Of a DNA stretch of 39,098 nucleotides, positions 9,795-35,711 are shown piece after piece. Location: assembly GCA_900155495.1 (NCBI GenBank), contig FTLJ01000577.1, positions 1-39,098 on the forward strand, read 5' to 3'. The notes under the pieces are model-generated. The model saw only the letters and a program-made list of their open reading frames with translations. It had not been told where the DNA came from and did not search any database. How positions within the stretch are numbered: position 1 is the first letter of the stretch; each line of letters starts with the position of its first letter. The position numbers and the translations under genes were made by a program. This stretch comes from Porogramme epimiltina. Taxonomy: Eukaryota > Basidiomycota > Agaricomycetes > Polyporales > Polyporaceae.

Positions 9795-10494
9795 AAGGTC
9801 GCGGACCTCACAATCGTGCAGCTCGACGACTCGAGTCTCGCATGTCGATATCCGGCCCCCATGTCCTCTGCCCCGGTAGCGCCCATCTCCTCCATCCACG
9901 TTGTACGCTCCGCGAGCCTCGCATTGCAAATACCCGCGCACCATGTCTTCTACCCCGGCAGCGCCCATTTCTTCCATTCACGTTCTAAGCCCCGCCAGCA
10001 TCGCATTACGAACACCCGCGCACCATGTCCTCTGCCCCGGCAGCGCCCATCTCTTCATCCACGTTGTACGCTCCGCGAGCCTCGCATTCCAAATACCCGC
10101 GTACCATGTCTTCTGCCCCGGCAGCGCCCATCTCCTCATCCACGTTCTAAGCCACGAGATCCGCTGCTTCATCGGCCCCGCAGCCGCAAACGGAACCACA
10201 GACGGCGCGCCGCTCCAACGCAGCCCGACGTCGCTCGCGCGGCTGGTAATCGCGTCGCCGTGCGGGCTGAGCCTCTTCTCCGAGTTCCCGAGGGTGTGCG
10301 TCGTGCTCGGGGACGCGGAGCGGCTCGAGCGCGAGGTAATGAAGCTTGTGGGCGCGATGGAGCGCGACGGCGTGGCGGTGCGCACGGTGTGGGTGCGCGA
10401 CGCGCCGCGCGACGTGCTCATGCTGGGTTGGTGGGACGAGCGCGTGCGTGACGGCGTGTGGGCGCAGGCCGGAGAGTGGGTCGCGCAGGCGTGA
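9795..10494 (+). pseudogene. Broken duplicate of the alpha/beta hydrolase 3' end
   Basis: The last 294 bases (10201-10494) align without any gap to 6294-6587 of the intact hydrolase, giving DGAPLQRSPTSLARLVIASP onward and the same stop position. An upstream block at about 9797-9870 matches VADLTI-QLDDS and the start of the Ala/Pro/Ser linker. Between them the linker has expanded into an 82-bp minisatellite. The oxyanion and nucleophile exons (HGGGY, GDSAGG) are absent. The codon for the catalytic His is changed from CAC to CGC (Arg) at 10408-10410, so even the remaining part could not complete a triad. The frame is still open from 9901 to 10494, which suggests a recent event or a secondary use, but I see no start with good context. 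The flank after the stop is also duplicated, to about 11080. Confidence 0.85.
9861..10150 (+). repeat. 82-bp minisatellite, about 3.5 copies, derived from hydrolase coding DNA
   Basis: Units start at ATGTC words at 9861, 9943, 10025 and 10106, a spacing of 82, 82 and 81 bases. Each contains TCTGCCCCGG or TCTACCCCGG, then GCGCCCAT, then CACGTT and a variable segment. The head of the unit resembles the parent hydrolase at 6210 (ATGTCCTCCGCGCCCGCGAC), so the array was seeded from the duplicated linker. Units 1 and 3 share one version of the second half (GTACGCTCCGCGAGCCTCGC), while 2 and 4 share another (TTCTAAGCC), pointing to a higher-order 164-bp unit. Confidence 0.8.
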
Positions 10495-22363: not shown

Positions 22364-22370
22364 TATAAAA
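22364..22370 (+). promoter_or_regulatory. TATA box of the secreted repeat-precursor gene
   Basis: TATAAAA, 96 bases upstream of the ATG at 22460, implying a leader of about 60 bases. A canonical TATA box at this spacing is common for strongly or conditionally expressed secreted-protein genes in fungi. Confidence 0.6.
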
Positions 22371-22459
22371 AGATGTGCGACGCGACCAAACATCCCAGCC
22401 CACTCGGAACTCCCCTACAGTTTCGATTGAAGGACCTTCTATAGTTTCCAACTACCAAC

Positions 22460-24269
22460 ATGGAGTTGAAGCTGGCCTACATGTTGTCCGTCTGCCTTAC
22501 CGTCCTTGCGGTCGCGACCTCGGTGAGTTACTTCTCGCACCACACCTCAAACGTGTTCTTCTAACTCATTCCCTCTTACTCCACAGTCTGCTGCTCGTCT
22601 AGCAGCCCCTCATCACGCAGTCGTCACCAAGACTGACATTCGCGATGACCGCGGAAACCCTATCTACTCTTGGGAGATCAGCCAGGACGAGCACGACCGT
22701 CTGAGCACGATGCTTCAGCAAGATTTCTATGATACCGGCGTCAAGGGCACGCTCCTCACGTCTGAACCCCACGTATGCTCCCATTGTGGCAAGGAGACCG
22801 AGTTCATCGACTGGTGGGTGACCCTCCGCAAAGAGCAACTTTGTGCCAACTAACTAACGTTGTTGCGTAGGGTCTTCACCGCCCTCGCTCGCGGCGTACA
22901 CTCCCCCGAGTTCCTAGTGGAGGCCCTTCGCGAGGGGCGTTCTCCCGAGAACGTTTACCACGATGTCTATTGCTCCCGGTGTGGTCATCTCACTGCGTTC
23001 CATGCTCTTCCAGGAACGGAAGGCGGCGCACCCCACATCGACGAAGCCCCGGTGTGTTTTGAGCTATTCTTCGTTCTTTCATAACACTAAACCTTAACGG
23101 TGCTGCTCGATAGCTCTACGACCGCACGGTTCGGAAATTCTTAGTGAACAACGACATTTATAAGCGTGAAGCGGTCGCGGAAGTTTCAGTCAGGGTCCGT
23201 CTTCGCTGAAAAAAAATTTTCTTGCTGACACAATAGCTAATTTGGCCCCATTACCTCGATTCCAGGACCAGCCCGACGCTGCCGACGATGGAGTTTCACC
23301 CACTCCCCTCGCCGCCTGGTGCCAGCGCTGCACCGCCGGTAACTGGATTATCAAACGGGACTCCGAGGATGCCGCGGTAGATTCCGAGACTGTAATCGAC
23401 GAATCGACATCGACTGTCGAAGATGACGTATCTCCCACCCCTCTTGCTGCATGGTGCCAGAGGTGCACGGCTGGTAACTGGCTCATCAAGCGCGATGCCG
23501 AAGAAAATGAAGCGGAGCCCGAACTTGAAGTAGCCGCCGGTGACACCGCAGAGCCTACCCCTCTCGCTGCTTGGTGCCAGAGATGTACGGCCGGCAACTG
23601 GATTATCAAACGCGACACCGAGGACACTGTAGCCACAGACGCGACTGACGTCGAGGATACCGTCGGACCAAAGCCTCTCGCAGCCTGGTGCCAGCGTTGC
23701 ACCGCCGGTAACTGGCTCATTAAGCGCGAGGACGAGGGCAGCGAGGTCACGCCTGAGGCCACCATGGAAACCATCCAGCCGAAGCCTCTTGCAGCTTGGT
23801 GCCAGCGGTGCACTGCCGGCAATTGGATCATCAAACGTGACGCCGAGGTAGATACTGTGGAGGCTGAAACCGTAGACGCGGCGGAGACGGCGGAGCCGGT
23901 GCCCCTCGCTGCTTGGTGCCAGAGGTGCACCGCGGGCAACTGGATCATTAAGCGCGAATCCGAAGCAGCAGAGGTACTCTCTAGCTTCCTCGGACTGGAA
24001 TATTCGCTCACTCATCACTGCGCTCATAGGTCGAAGCGGACATAGATGCGGTCACTGAGGACGTCGCAGAGCCAGAGCCACTGGCAGCCTGGTGCATACG
24101 ATGCACCGCCGGGAATTGGATTATCAAGCGGGAGGAGGAGGCTGCCGCCGCGCTCGCCAAAGTCGCTGCTGCGAGCTCCGATTCCGTCGATCCCGAGCCC
24201 CTAGCGGCGTGGTGCCAGAGGTGCACTGCTGGTAACTGGATCATCAAACGCGACGATACTGGGGCTTAG
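22460..24269 (+). CDS. Secreted Kex2-processed repeat protein (eight Trp-Cys-x-x-Cys cores), candidate peptide precursor
   Basis: Six exons join in frame: 22460-22522, 22587-22813, 22871-23051, 23114-23194, 23266-23973 and 24030-24269; 499 residues. Exon 1 encodes a signal peptide (MELKLAYMLSVCLTVLAVAT). Residues about 25-160 form a domain with CSHC and CSRC pairs, HVCSHCGKETEF and DVYCSRCGHLTAF. A first Lys-Arg occurs in NDIYKR. Eight copies of an 18-residue core follow at residues 198-215, 243-260, 283-300, 321-338, 358-375, 397-414, 437-454 and 477-494. The consensus is PLAAWCQRCTAGNWIIKR (Leu for Ile in copies 2 and 4; CIRC in copy 7). Each copy ends in KR and is followed by an acidic spacer of about 19-27 residues. 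Kex2 in the Golgi cuts after KR, so eight peptides should be released and secreted. The layout matches fungal Kex2-processed repeat proteins, including dikaritin-type RiPP precursors; the core itself is unfamiliar. Alternative role: surface-active peptides. Confidence 0.9.
23305..24251 (+). repeat. Eight 54-bp coding repeats of the peptide core
   Basis: Core copies lie at 23305-23358, 23440-23493, 23560-23613, 23674-23727, 23785-23838, 23902-23955, 24078-24131 and 24198-24251. Unit period varies from 111 to 135 bases within exon 5 because the spacers vary. Copies 6 and 7 are separated by an intron (23974-24029). Codon choice differs between copies while the peptide is nearly identical; for example the Lys-Arg pair appears as AAACGG, AAGCGC, AAACGC, AAACGT and AAGCGG. 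Confidence 0.95.
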
Positions 24270-24766
24270 TATAAGTGCGCCACACTATTCTAGTAGGAGA
24301 CATACCCGTTCCCGGGACATCTTCTCTAGATCTATCGGTAGCTGGGACGTGTATGAGGAATTATATGTAATCGCGAATATACTTGTGTTCAAAGTTGTGC
24401 CCGCTACTACTAAGGCCTACGACATAGTATTACGGTGACGTTTATTCACGTGTTATATGTTTTACCTCCAGCTTCCTAGAACAGAGGTGGATGGGGCACG
24501 CGTACACACGTCTTCGACAGTGAAGTGAGCGTCAAATAATGTCGAGCCTGAAATCGGGCAAGCAACCGTAGGTGCCATAAATAGCCAGGTGTGCCAGGAG
24601 CTGCTGAGTCAGCCCTAGTAATGATCGCCATCAAGCCAAAGTTACTAATTGCGTGAGTATTTGCAACAGTCCTGACTCCTTATCACAGAACCGTCATCTC
24701 CCGAATATCATACACGATTCCTGTTTTAAGTGAGGCAGAAGGTTGCGTTGTTCTGCTTCATACTCA
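24270..24766. other. 3' flank of the repeat-precursor gene
   Basis: AT-richer than the coding neighbours, with no open frame of note. It probably holds the 3' untranslated region of the precursor gene and the promoter of the F-box gene. Confidence 0.5.
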
Positions 24767-24836
24767 GACTTGTTGCGCTGACAGTGAATCCCATACTAGA
24801 CTTGTTGCGCTGATAGTGAATCCCATACTAGACTTG
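24767..24836. repeat. 32-bp tandem repeat, two copies plus six bases
   Basis: Units start with GACTTGTTGCGCTGA at 24767 and 24799 and differ at one base (C or T after CTGA); a third start, GACTTG, follows at 24831. The array ends ten bases before the F-box ATG at 24847, so it lies in that gene's core promoter or leader. Confidence 0.8.
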
Positions 24837-33243: not shown

Positions 33244-35711
33244 ATGCTTTCTTACGCCGTTGTCGCCGCCGCGATCGCTTGGGTCGTCTGGAAGATCCTT
33301 CGGCCTTACCTGGTCAGGTCACCATTGGACGTGATTCCGGGCCCTGCCCGGAAATCGTTGTTGTCAGGCGAGTTCGTGACCTTGTTGTGGGCCATGATGT
33401 CGTTCTCACCCCAGCATCAGGCAACCTTGAACAGCTCTTCGACCGGGATGCGTGGGGGTTCCATGACGAGCTGGCACAGCAGTATGGGCCGATCGTGAAG
33501 CTCAATGCGGTACTAGGAGTCCGTACATCTTCCATTCGCTCCCCCGCCTGTCACTCAGTCGTCCGACCATCCAGGACAAATGGCTTTACGTCTTCGACCC
33601 TACCGCGCTTCGCAGCATCGTCCTCAAGGAGCAGGGCACGTACGACCAAATCCCCTGGCTTATCGAGTGCGTCCCCGACTCTAGCCCCCGCCTATTCCCA
33701 ACCCATTCTGATCGACGTCTGATCTTCCCCCGCGCGCGCAGAAGCACCCGCCTGCTCCTCGGCGCCGGCATCCTAGGCGTGCTCGGTGCGTATACAGACG
33801 CACATACGCCGATTCCCGACGTCGCGTATCGTGATGCCCGATGGCCCGATGGCGGATGCTGACGTCGCTCGCTTCGCCCCTCCCCCAGGCGACGCGCACA
33901 AGCGGCAGCGCAAGATGCTCACCCCAGTCTTCTCGGAGAGCAACCTGCGGGACCTGACGCCCATCTTCTACGAGGTCGCGCACCGGGTGCGTCCCTCAAC
34001 ACCGCCGAAGCGCGCAGCCTCGCTAACGCGCCCTCGCTTCGCAGCTCGCGGAGGGCATTTCCGGGGAGGTGCAGCCTGGCGCGACGAAGGACGTGGACAT
34101 GCTCGACTGGATGGGACGCGCTGCGCTCGAGATCATCGGCCAGGCGGGACTGGGGCACTCCTTCGACCGGCTCACCTCCCACACGGGGTCCGACACGTAC
34201 ACCAAGGCGGCGAAAACATACCTGTGCGTCCGCTCCCCGACCACAATCACCTCGTGGTGGCTGACCATGGACATCTCCCGCGCAGCCCGCTCTCCTTCAC
34301 CCCCCTCATGGTCGCGATGCGGCAGGCGAGCCCGACCCTGACGAAGCTCGGGCCGGCGTGGTTCCGGCGGTGGCTCGTCGACATGCTCCCGCTCGCGCAG
34401 GTGCAGCAGCTCAAGGACGTCGTCGACGTCCTGCACGACACCTCGGTCCGCATCATTGCGGAAAAGCGCGCGCTCCTCGAGGGCGGCAAGTTCTCCGCCG
34501 GCAAGGACATCATCAGCATCCTACGTAAGTCCTGCTCGCATCTCGCTCGCGCCAGGTGTGGACTAACGACATTCCGGACGCGCGCGCGCGTATGTGTGGA
34601 CCCGGTGCGTGCGAGCAGTGAAGGCGAACATGGCCGCGGCCGAGTCCGAGAGGCTCCCGGACGAACAAATCATCGGACAAATGTCGTACGTCCTCCCGCC
34701 CCACATGCTTCCCGGCTGCCGTCGAACTCAGCGCTGAGCGCCCCCCCGCGACAGGATCTTGCTTTTCGCGGCGACGGACACGACGTCACACATGATGGCG
34801 CAGGTGCTGCAGCTGCTGGCCGAGCACCCGGACGTGCAGGACAAGGTCCGGCAGGAGATCCTCGCGTCGCGCAGCGGGCAGGACATCGCGTACGACCAGC
34901 TGAGCGCGCTCCCGCTCCTCGACGCCGTCTGCAAGGAGACGCTCCGGCTGTACGTCCCCCCGCTCGTCTCCCGTAATCACGGCTGACTTCCTCCCCTCTA
35001 GGTTCCCGCCCACCCCGATCGTCCTCCGAAAGTGCGCCCCTGCTCTCCCCCCACCCTCTCCCTTCAGCCGTCACTGACCCACACCCGCCCCCACAGAGCC
35101 TTCCAAGACTCGACGCTGACGCTCGCGCAGCCGATGGCGGGCGCAGACGGCGCGCCGCTCGCGCACGTCTTCGTGCCCAAGGGCACGAACGTGCTCGTCG
35201 GCGTGCGCGCGTGCAACCGCAGCGCCGCGCTCTGGGGCGCGGACGCGGAGGCGTGGCGCCCCGCGCGCTGGCTCGCGCCGCTCCCCAAGGCCGTCGAGGC
35301 CGCGAGCGTGCCCGGGGTGTACTCGCACTTGTACGTGCCCCCCCTCTCCTTTCTATGCCTCTCCGCGTGTACGTTCGGCGCTGACGCGTGTGCGCGCACC
35401 TTCGACAGGATGACGTTCGTCGGCGGGAACCGGTCCTGCGTCGGCTTCAAGTTCGCCCAGATCGAAATGAGTGCGCCTCCTCTCCCTCCCTCTCCCATGC
35501 CCGCACGCTGACCTCGCTCTCTCCCCTCCCCTCCCCCCCCGCAGAGGTGATCCTCTCGACCCTACTCGCGCACTTCGTCTTCGAGCGCTCCGCGACGCCC
35601 ATCTTCTGGAACGTCTCCGCGATCACCTTCCCGAGCGCAGGGCGCGAGAGCGAAAAACCCGAGATGTGGCTCAAGGTCCGGCGGTACGAGCCCCCCGCAG
35701 CCGATGCGTGA
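33244..35711 (+). CDS. Cytochrome P450 monooxygenase
   Basis: Multi-exon gene (about ten introns) for a microsomal P450. The N-terminal anchor is MLSYAVVAAAIAWVVWKILR, followed by the hinge DVIPGPARKS. Helix-C-type sequence HKRQRKMLTPVFSESNLRDL is at about 33900. The oxygen-activating I-helix motif is LLFAATDTTSHMMAQ at about 34757-34800. ExxR lies in KETLRL near 34935-34955, and the haem ligand loop FVGGNRSCVGFKFAQIEM at about 35410-35468 holds the Cys. All signature residues are present, so the enzyme should be functional. The family cannot be fixed by eye; fungal clans of this kind oxidise terpenes, fatty acids or xenobiotics. The first intron appears to use a GC donor (33368-33420). Several introns are pure pyrimidine tracts with many C residues. 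No other biosynthetic gene is adjacent. Confidence 0.92.

Follow-up and report, generated by a model that had tools for sequence, protein, structure and literature searches.

The 39,098-nucleotide stretch of Porogramme epimiltina DNA analysed here (the window) contains a gene which in our reading, at odds slightly better than even (about 0.55), encodes a secreted, Kex2-cut precursor of a short signal peptide present in multiple copies, and which would descend from a non-secreted, single-tail protein of the Agaricomycetes. Kex2 would cut behind each Lys-Arg and so yield a single short extracellular peptide in many copies; a carboxypeptidase would then trim the Lys-Arg from the released peptide, the acidic spacer would be removed in whole or in part, and the two Cys of the core would close one small disulfide ring, with the N-terminal domain acting as a prodomain. 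The released peptide would most likely serve as an extracellular signal, which is the weakest step of the proposal. As to the origin, an Agaricomycetes protein with no signal peptide and a single W-x2-WW tail would have acquired dibasic sites as well as a signal peptide, and its Trp-x(n)-Trp tail would have been multiplied into repeats. The rival explanations weighed below have processing steps in common with this reading, and the probabilities given therefore do not add up to one.

The contig carrying the gene is the window itself, with 22 kb of sequence ahead of the gene and 15 kb behind it. The coding region (22460..24269, + strand) is made of six exons, 22460-22522, 22587-22813, 22871-23051, 23114-23194, 23266-23973 and 24030-24269, whose in-frame joining gives an intact 1500-base frame for 499 amino acids plus a stop; the preliminary description had placed a repeat precursor at exactly this position. 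The predicted joins rest on the open frame and on the GT-AG borders read from the DNA, the five introns measuring 64, 57, 62, 71 and 56 bases, every one of them GT...AG, and the coding region as a whole is backed by Polyporaceae homologues. Moreover, the exon 4 join matches a Cubamyces relative, which reads FGNNVYKREA where the window protein has FLVNNDIYKREA. A TATA-like stretch of putative function (TATAAAAA, 22364..22371, +) lies 96 bases 5′ of the ATG.

Residues 1-24 form a predicted signal peptide (22460..22595, +, split by the intron at 22523-22586; putative cleavage site), as judged by a simple hydropathy measure and no trained predictor, the maximum within residues 1-36 being 2.54 (12-residue window). 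The N-terminal domain (N-domain; residues ~25-168, 22596..23146, +) is split by the introns at 22814-22870 and 23052-23113 and contains two CxxC pairs, CSHC (22776..22787, +) and CSRC (22971..22982, +). A Lys-Arg followed by Glu-Ala in the spliced translation (residues 174-175, 23162..23167, +) marks the boundary between the N-domain and the repeats. A signal peptide and an N-terminal domain had both been proposed from the letters, and both were recovered.

The core alignment then gives eight cores with the consensus PLAAWC[QI]RCTAGNW[IL]IKR, Lys-Arg closing all eight. Cores 1 (23305..23358), 3 (23560..23613), 5 (23785..23838), 6 (23902..23955) and 8 (24198..24251) read PLAAWCQRCTAGNWIIKR, cores 2 (23440..23493) and 4 (23674..23727) read PLAAWCQRCTAGNWLIKR, and core 7 (24078..24131) reads PLAAWCIRCTAGNWIIKR, all on the + strand. 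WCQRC is found in 7/8 cores and becomes WCIRC in core 7 (Gln to Ile), and the residue behind GNW is Ile in 6 cores and Leu in 2. The spacers ahead of AAW are 21-29 residues long and mostly acidic, and the one between cores 6 and 7 holds intron 5 (23974..24029, +, GT-AG, in frame). Residues 185-499 contain 8 Lys-Arg dipeptides, against 0.56 expected from composition. The near-identical, Lys-Arg-ended cores with acidic spacers, and with them the Kex2-processed repeat plan, are in agreement with what had first been claimed.

By its plan the precursor is a KEP, since it combines a predicted signal peptide with 8 near-identical cores beside Lys-Arg sites; its prodomain and origin were not found described in the literature searched. 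It resembles the Agaricomycetes KEPs of C. cinerea, which, in the excerpt of PMC9769878, have a signal peptide and several similar cores each beside a dibasic site; according to the same excerpt, the cores of C. cinerea KEP 490115 and its relatives end in Trp, as a shared trait. Unlike the C. cinerea KEPs, the window protein has a large two-CxxC N-domain before the repeats and WCxxC cores, and its N-domain is part of a wider family with no signal peptide. KEP peptides have been detected in other Agaricomycetes, which favours release of the cores; against a signal role, no phenotype was apparent when six KEP genes of C. cinerea were knocked out, as far as that excerpt goes (PMC9769878). C. cinerea KEPs have also been expressed in Pichia pastoris. 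At least one Kex2-type P-domain gene and at least one DPP-IV-type gene were found in the same genome, the exon-by-exon scan giving lower bounds.

A whole-protein database search returned at least 5 homologues, the N-domain of a Fomes protein retrieved 20 proteins, query included, and an N-domain profile search at least 76, among them proteins of Gloeophyllum, Boletus, Serendipita, Rhizoctonia, Mycena, Pleurotus and Collybiopsis; the whole-protein and profile searches scored only candidates sharing most words, so that their counts are lower bounds. The Pfam label PF26731 is carried in the sequence database by 4/5, 18/20 and 54/76 proteins of these three sets, and the window N-domain, which is alignable, has both CxxC pairs and finds its place in the tree, belongs with the family so labelled. 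The strings WCQRC, AAWCQRC, GNWIIKR and GNWLIKR were not found in the literature searched, outside which lie KEP-listing supplements that may include relatives, and none of the titles in the literature listings concerned such a polypore family. The family had been presented as undescribed; this stands for the core strings in the papers searched, and falls for the proteins, given the relatives annotated 'hypothetical protein' and the PF26731 label. Likewise, the homologues that had been anticipated among basidiomycetes exist, the cores in Polyporaceae and the N-domain also Agaricomycetes-wide, there with no hydrophobic N-terminus.

The named repeat-bearing relatives are Polyporaceae, by taxonomy look-up for Earliella, Fomes, Lentinus, Daedaleopsis and Cubamyces; those of Trametes, Polyporus, Cerioporus and Lenzites we take to be Polyporaceae as well. 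WCQRC...GNW cores occur in four relatives, all annotated only as 'hypothetical protein': Lentinus tigrinus (7 cores, the first ending IER, not IKR), Polyporus arcularius (3), Trametes gibbosa (2) and Daedaleopsis nitida (1). The string AAWCQRCTAGNW[IL]I is identical to that of the window in L. tigrinus (7 copies) and in two of the three P. arcularius cores, the third having CAPGNW; near variants of the core are GWCQRCVGGNWLI in T. gibbosa and GWCQRCVLGNWII in D. nitida, and Earliella has one WCAAC...GNW core among 11. Some ten relatives (P0002-P0006, P0015, P0017, P0019, P0021 and P0022 of the 77 proteins, P0001-P0077, of our collection) join the same N-domain to other W...W cores, including WRPLWTRKR, WQPYWTRKR, WPGNWIAKR and WPAGFNWIYKR, and two Polyporaceae members, P0027 and P0030, have repeats with no paired Trp. 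Those of P0027 (Cubamyces sp. BRFM 1775), which has the same N-domain, read TYGWDTISC[IL][AT]KR, with one Cys. A dibasic pair closes most cores in the Polyporaceae relatives, with exceptions including cores of P0001, P0015 and P0019; the [KR]R core pattern counted only cores with such ends.

At least two family members each were found in Daedaleopsis nitida, Lentinus tigrinus, Earliella scabrosa, Fomes fomentarius and Cubamyces sp. Same-species members, for which the longest contig has an identical length, probably share one contig and may cluster in Daedaleopsis (P0005/P0006/P0008/P0010), Lentinus (P0001/P0007), Earliella (P0024/P0025) and Cubamyces sp. (P0021/P0027). The genome search found no second family member in the window's own genome; a repeat query of 103 residues matched this locus alone in the 41.9 Mb genome at E 0.001.

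How old are the eight copies? Silent sites among the cores are saturated (uncorrected mean pS 0.72, range 0.49-1.04 over 28 pairs) and replacement changes are scarce, with pN 0.031 and pN/pS 0.044 over the same 28 pairs, which are non-independent and make of pN/pS a description rather than a test. At one Arg of the core, all six Arg codons occur across the copies. Because silent saturation goes together with a near absence of replacements, the copies look old and individually constrained rather than recently homogenised, each kept to the same peptide, and each of the eight seems to be held by selection.

This constancy bears on the role of the peptide. A peptide secreted not as a signal but for defence or competition, directed against microbes or animals, would agree with a core that is short and holds Trp, Cys and one Arg, with the differences in cores between genera and with the several species having at least two family members; roles in the biotic environment are also those favoured by the authors of PMC9769878. 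We nevertheless regard this explanation as rather unlikely, since eight copies kept to one sequence within a gene are more like a fixed ligand than a diversifying arsenal, and since AAWCQRCTAGNW is unchanged in the window species, L. tigrinus and P. arcularius, although the latter two are close in the tree.

Which peptide would be released from the precursor? In the relatives from Lentinus and Polyporus, AAWC is immediately preceded by KK or RK, and this second dibasic pair, absent from the window, suggests a core boundary AAWC...NW[IL]I. It counts against our reading that the window cores are bounded by a dibasic site at their right end only, and that the primary Kex2 product would thus be a peptide of 37-45 residues with an acidic N-terminal half. 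The computed mass of AAWCQRCTAGNWII is 1591.739 Da reduced and 1589.723 Da with the disulfide, and that of WCQRCTAGNWII is 1449.665 Da reduced and 1447.649 Da with the disulfide. In the window and 15 relatives, taken among the 30 rows P0001-P0030 by eye for their repeats and leaving out the core-bearing P0005, an acidic residue directly follows [KR]R at 66/93 sites (background 0.18), in favour of the processing proposed. Against it, there is no overall Ste13 signature, as the next residue but one is Ala or Pro at only 25/93 sites (background 0.21). Earliella P0002 departs from this, with a Ste13-type dipeptide at 11/12 sites.

These dipeptides matter for a special case of the signal reading, namely an alpha-pheromone-like hormone acting on an STE2-type receptor. 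Like ascomycete alpha-type pheromone precursors, the window protein is multi-copy, predicted to be secreted and provided with Lys-Arg sites, and some groups of those pheromones have two Cys and Trp, as far as the source excerpts show. Unlike them it has inconsistent Ste13 dipeptides, no Pro-Gly-Gln, a conserved N-domain and a basidiomycete host. The motif Pro-Gly-Gln, absent from the cores, is that of alpha-factor. Basidiomycota KEPs with Ste13 signatures are on record, and a Trichosporon KEP peptide and the Fusarium-type pheromones have an early Trp, two Cys and a terminal Trp, like the window cores (both in the excerpt of PMC6339444); in the window, however, Ste13-type dipeptides stand behind only 3/9 Lys-Arg sites. 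The genome also contains an STE2 match, over residues 41-272 of a 373-residue spliced model (E 4.7e-6, 26.5 bits, most of the profile being covered), but this score is below the cut-off of 27.2, the model has no PDB sequence match, class I receptors are confined to Ascomycota according to the excerpts of PMC12842992 and PMC13308352, and nothing links the STE2-like gene to the precursor. On this balance a hormone of the alpha type is an unlikely candidate. The genome scan itself gave ~27.2 bits, reaching the curated cut-off only with in-frame neighbours added. The STE2-like gene, which is multi-exon (contig C63, 11664-11870 and flanks) and shows seven hydrophobic segments by eye, is a receptor lead, with no evidence of reading the core peptide.

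The N-domain gives the clue to the origin that we propose for the secreted precursor. It is found Agaricomycetes-wide, in proteins of ~200 residues with no hydrophobic N-terminus, and in the window it aligns with five relatives, both CxxC pairs being present. Its four Cys are invariant in 44 aligned relatives; two models outside that alignment, P0005 and P0067, have no first CxxC pair (alignments were made with 18/20 rows in one case and 44/77 proteins in the larger one). AlphaFold predicts a confident domain in a non-secreted relative (mean pLDDT 83.4, pTM 0.77), and in a Trametes relative pLDDT is <50 over most of the repeat part; structure searches found no solved structure resembling the N-domain. 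N-terminal hydropathy exceeds 2.0 in the window protein and in 21/30 rows P0001-P0030, the nine remaining models having, by reading, a missing N-terminus or extra starting sequence, and in 0/47 rows P0031-P0077, many of them partial, where the highest value is 1.92. In this second set a single W-x2-WW tail, mostly WGKWWLD, is present in 21/47 rows (highest hydropathy among them 1.78), and no Trp tail in 23/47, many partial, Cristinia and Phlebiopsis among them. Trp-x(n)-Trp motifs number 3 in Panus, 5 in Steccherinum and 1 in Meripilus, all Polyporales by taxonomy look-up.

The N-domain tree was made of 47 sequences, the window and 46/77 proteins. P0005, P0012, P0016, P0020, P0023 and P0026, whose models are aberrant, incomplete or contain introns, were kept out, as were 25/47 rows P0031-P0077, partial ones among them but also P0051, P0053, P0067 and P0069; its 'secreted' set corresponds to P0001-P0030 and the window, P0011, P0027 and P0028 of which have no N-terminus. 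The Polyporaceae-type proteins form one clade (support 100/100, stem of 1.82 changes per column) and 18 'standalone' proteins lie on the opposite side (99/96). Panus, Cristinia (placed in Agaricales by the look-up), Steccherinum and Meripilus are intermediate and do not form one group, and Phlebiopsis (Polyporales) groups with the standalone side. L. tigrinus and P. arcularius are near each other. The place of the window inside the clade is weakly supported, its nearest neighbour by path being Fomes and its highest identity 65%, with P. arcularius. The tree is rooted on a chosen outgroup, from which we infer the direction of change. Furthermore, P0046, P0056, P0057, P0059, P0060, P0062 and P0066 show by reading intron-like extra residues right behind ...IDW, at the site of the window's intron 2, and this agrees with the putative descent of one gene. 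That the cores descend from the W-x2-WW tail is proposed on the grounds of their position and of a loosely similar Trp-x(n)-Trp pattern, the sequences being not alignable, and against it stand Phlebiopsis and Cristinia, which lack the tail, and the repeats of P0027 and P0030, which lack paired Trp.

The intermediate proteins also raise the question of cleavage. In favour of an uncleaved repeat protein, [KR]R is absent from the relative in Steccherinum (P0033) in spite of its five Trp-x(n)-Trp motifs, and numbers three in Panus P0032 and one in Meripilus P0034. Peptides that coat hyphae, of the Rep1/repellent type, are the other form of this explanation. The Rep1 repellents of Ustilago resemble the window protein in their Kex2-cut repeats and basidiomycete host, and Rep1 peptides attach to hyphae. 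Rep1 has no Ste13 signature in the excerpt of PMC6339444, as is the case for most cores here. However, every window core ends in Lys-Arg, a dibasic end is found on most cores of the Polyporaceae relatives, and the acidic, hydrophilic spacers are unlike a surfactant, which makes an uncleaved or coating protein quite unlikely in our opinion.

The last alternative concerns the chemistry of the peptide, and here the gene neighbourhood is informative. The preliminary description had compared the precursor to UstA-type dikaritin RiPPs. In such a case oxidases, of the UstYa type or others, would cross-link the Trp or Cys of the released core and so form a cyclic compound with biological activity. The plan is indeed the same as in the UstA-type precursors of ustiloxin, phomopsin and asperipin, with a signal peptide and Kex2-separated repeated cores, Trp adjoins Cys in every core, a cytochrome P450 domain lies ~11 kb downstream (35002-35508), and the genome holds 19 UstYa matches. 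Yet none of these 19 is on the 39 kb contig (C462), over the 22 kb upstream and 15 kb downstream of the precursor, no other RiPP-type enzyme was seen among 30 chosen ORFs scanned with Pfam (out of 341 frames of at least 60 amino acids), and the window protein differs from UstA-type precursors in having a conserved N-domain and no core Tyr, the aromatic residue that is cross-linked in the known compounds. In addition, a DUF3328 neighbour is recorded for only 103/1680 Basidiomycota KEPs and, where present, sits on average 3.09 genes away in all fungi, in the excerpt of PMC7329392. The dikaritin comparison is not supported by these results, and we judge such a cross-linked product very unlikely. 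As there is no UstYa match on the contig and no RiPP cluster was seen, a KEP with a linear, probably disulfide-closed peptide is preferred.

The neighbours carry MutS, F-box, SWIRM/Myb/ZZ, TPR, P450 and alpha/beta-hydrolase domains (Pfam, 30 ORFs); the MutS-domain gene, on the minus strand, is MSH6-like by reading. The P450, whose gene start may be near 33467, is the only oxidase-type domain in the 30 ORFs scanned. The UstYa matches lie 2-3 per contig on C226, C316, C326, C223, C403, C293 and C26, which are possible dikaritin clusters. MSDIN RiPPs are known by their MSDIN leader and borosins by a fused methyltransferase; the 8 Pfam matches obtained with E values of up to 10 include no methyltransferase, and by reading the MSDIN leader is absent. 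The window also contains, at 9859-10153, a tandem repeat (82/163 bases, with 84-92% matches) and, at 24759-24836, a 32-base repeat of 2.4 copies (95% matches), which lies between the precursor gene and the F-box gene.

In conclusion, KEP peptides are widespread in fungi and their functions are largely unknown, according to the excerpt of PMC9769878. A bolder view, which we hold for a long shot, is that a once-intracellular mushroom protein turned once, in polypores, into a multi-copy hormone precursor, that its single C-terminal Trp tail, the ligand of its own two-CxxC domain, was multiplied and acquired Kex2 sites and a disulfide ring, and that the peptide is now read by the STE2-like receptor, of a class which according to the literature is missing from Basidiomycota. 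The silent-site saturation is evidence, of the sequence kind, for selection on the peptide itself, in each of the eight copies. The computed masses, and the core common to Lentinus tigrinus and Polyporus arcularius, make release and disulfide formation directly testable. Finally, the family suggests a route by which a KEP precursor may arise, from a signal-less conserved protein, through a few relatives with multiplied Trp motifs, to a clade of predicted secreted proteins with fast-changing cores.
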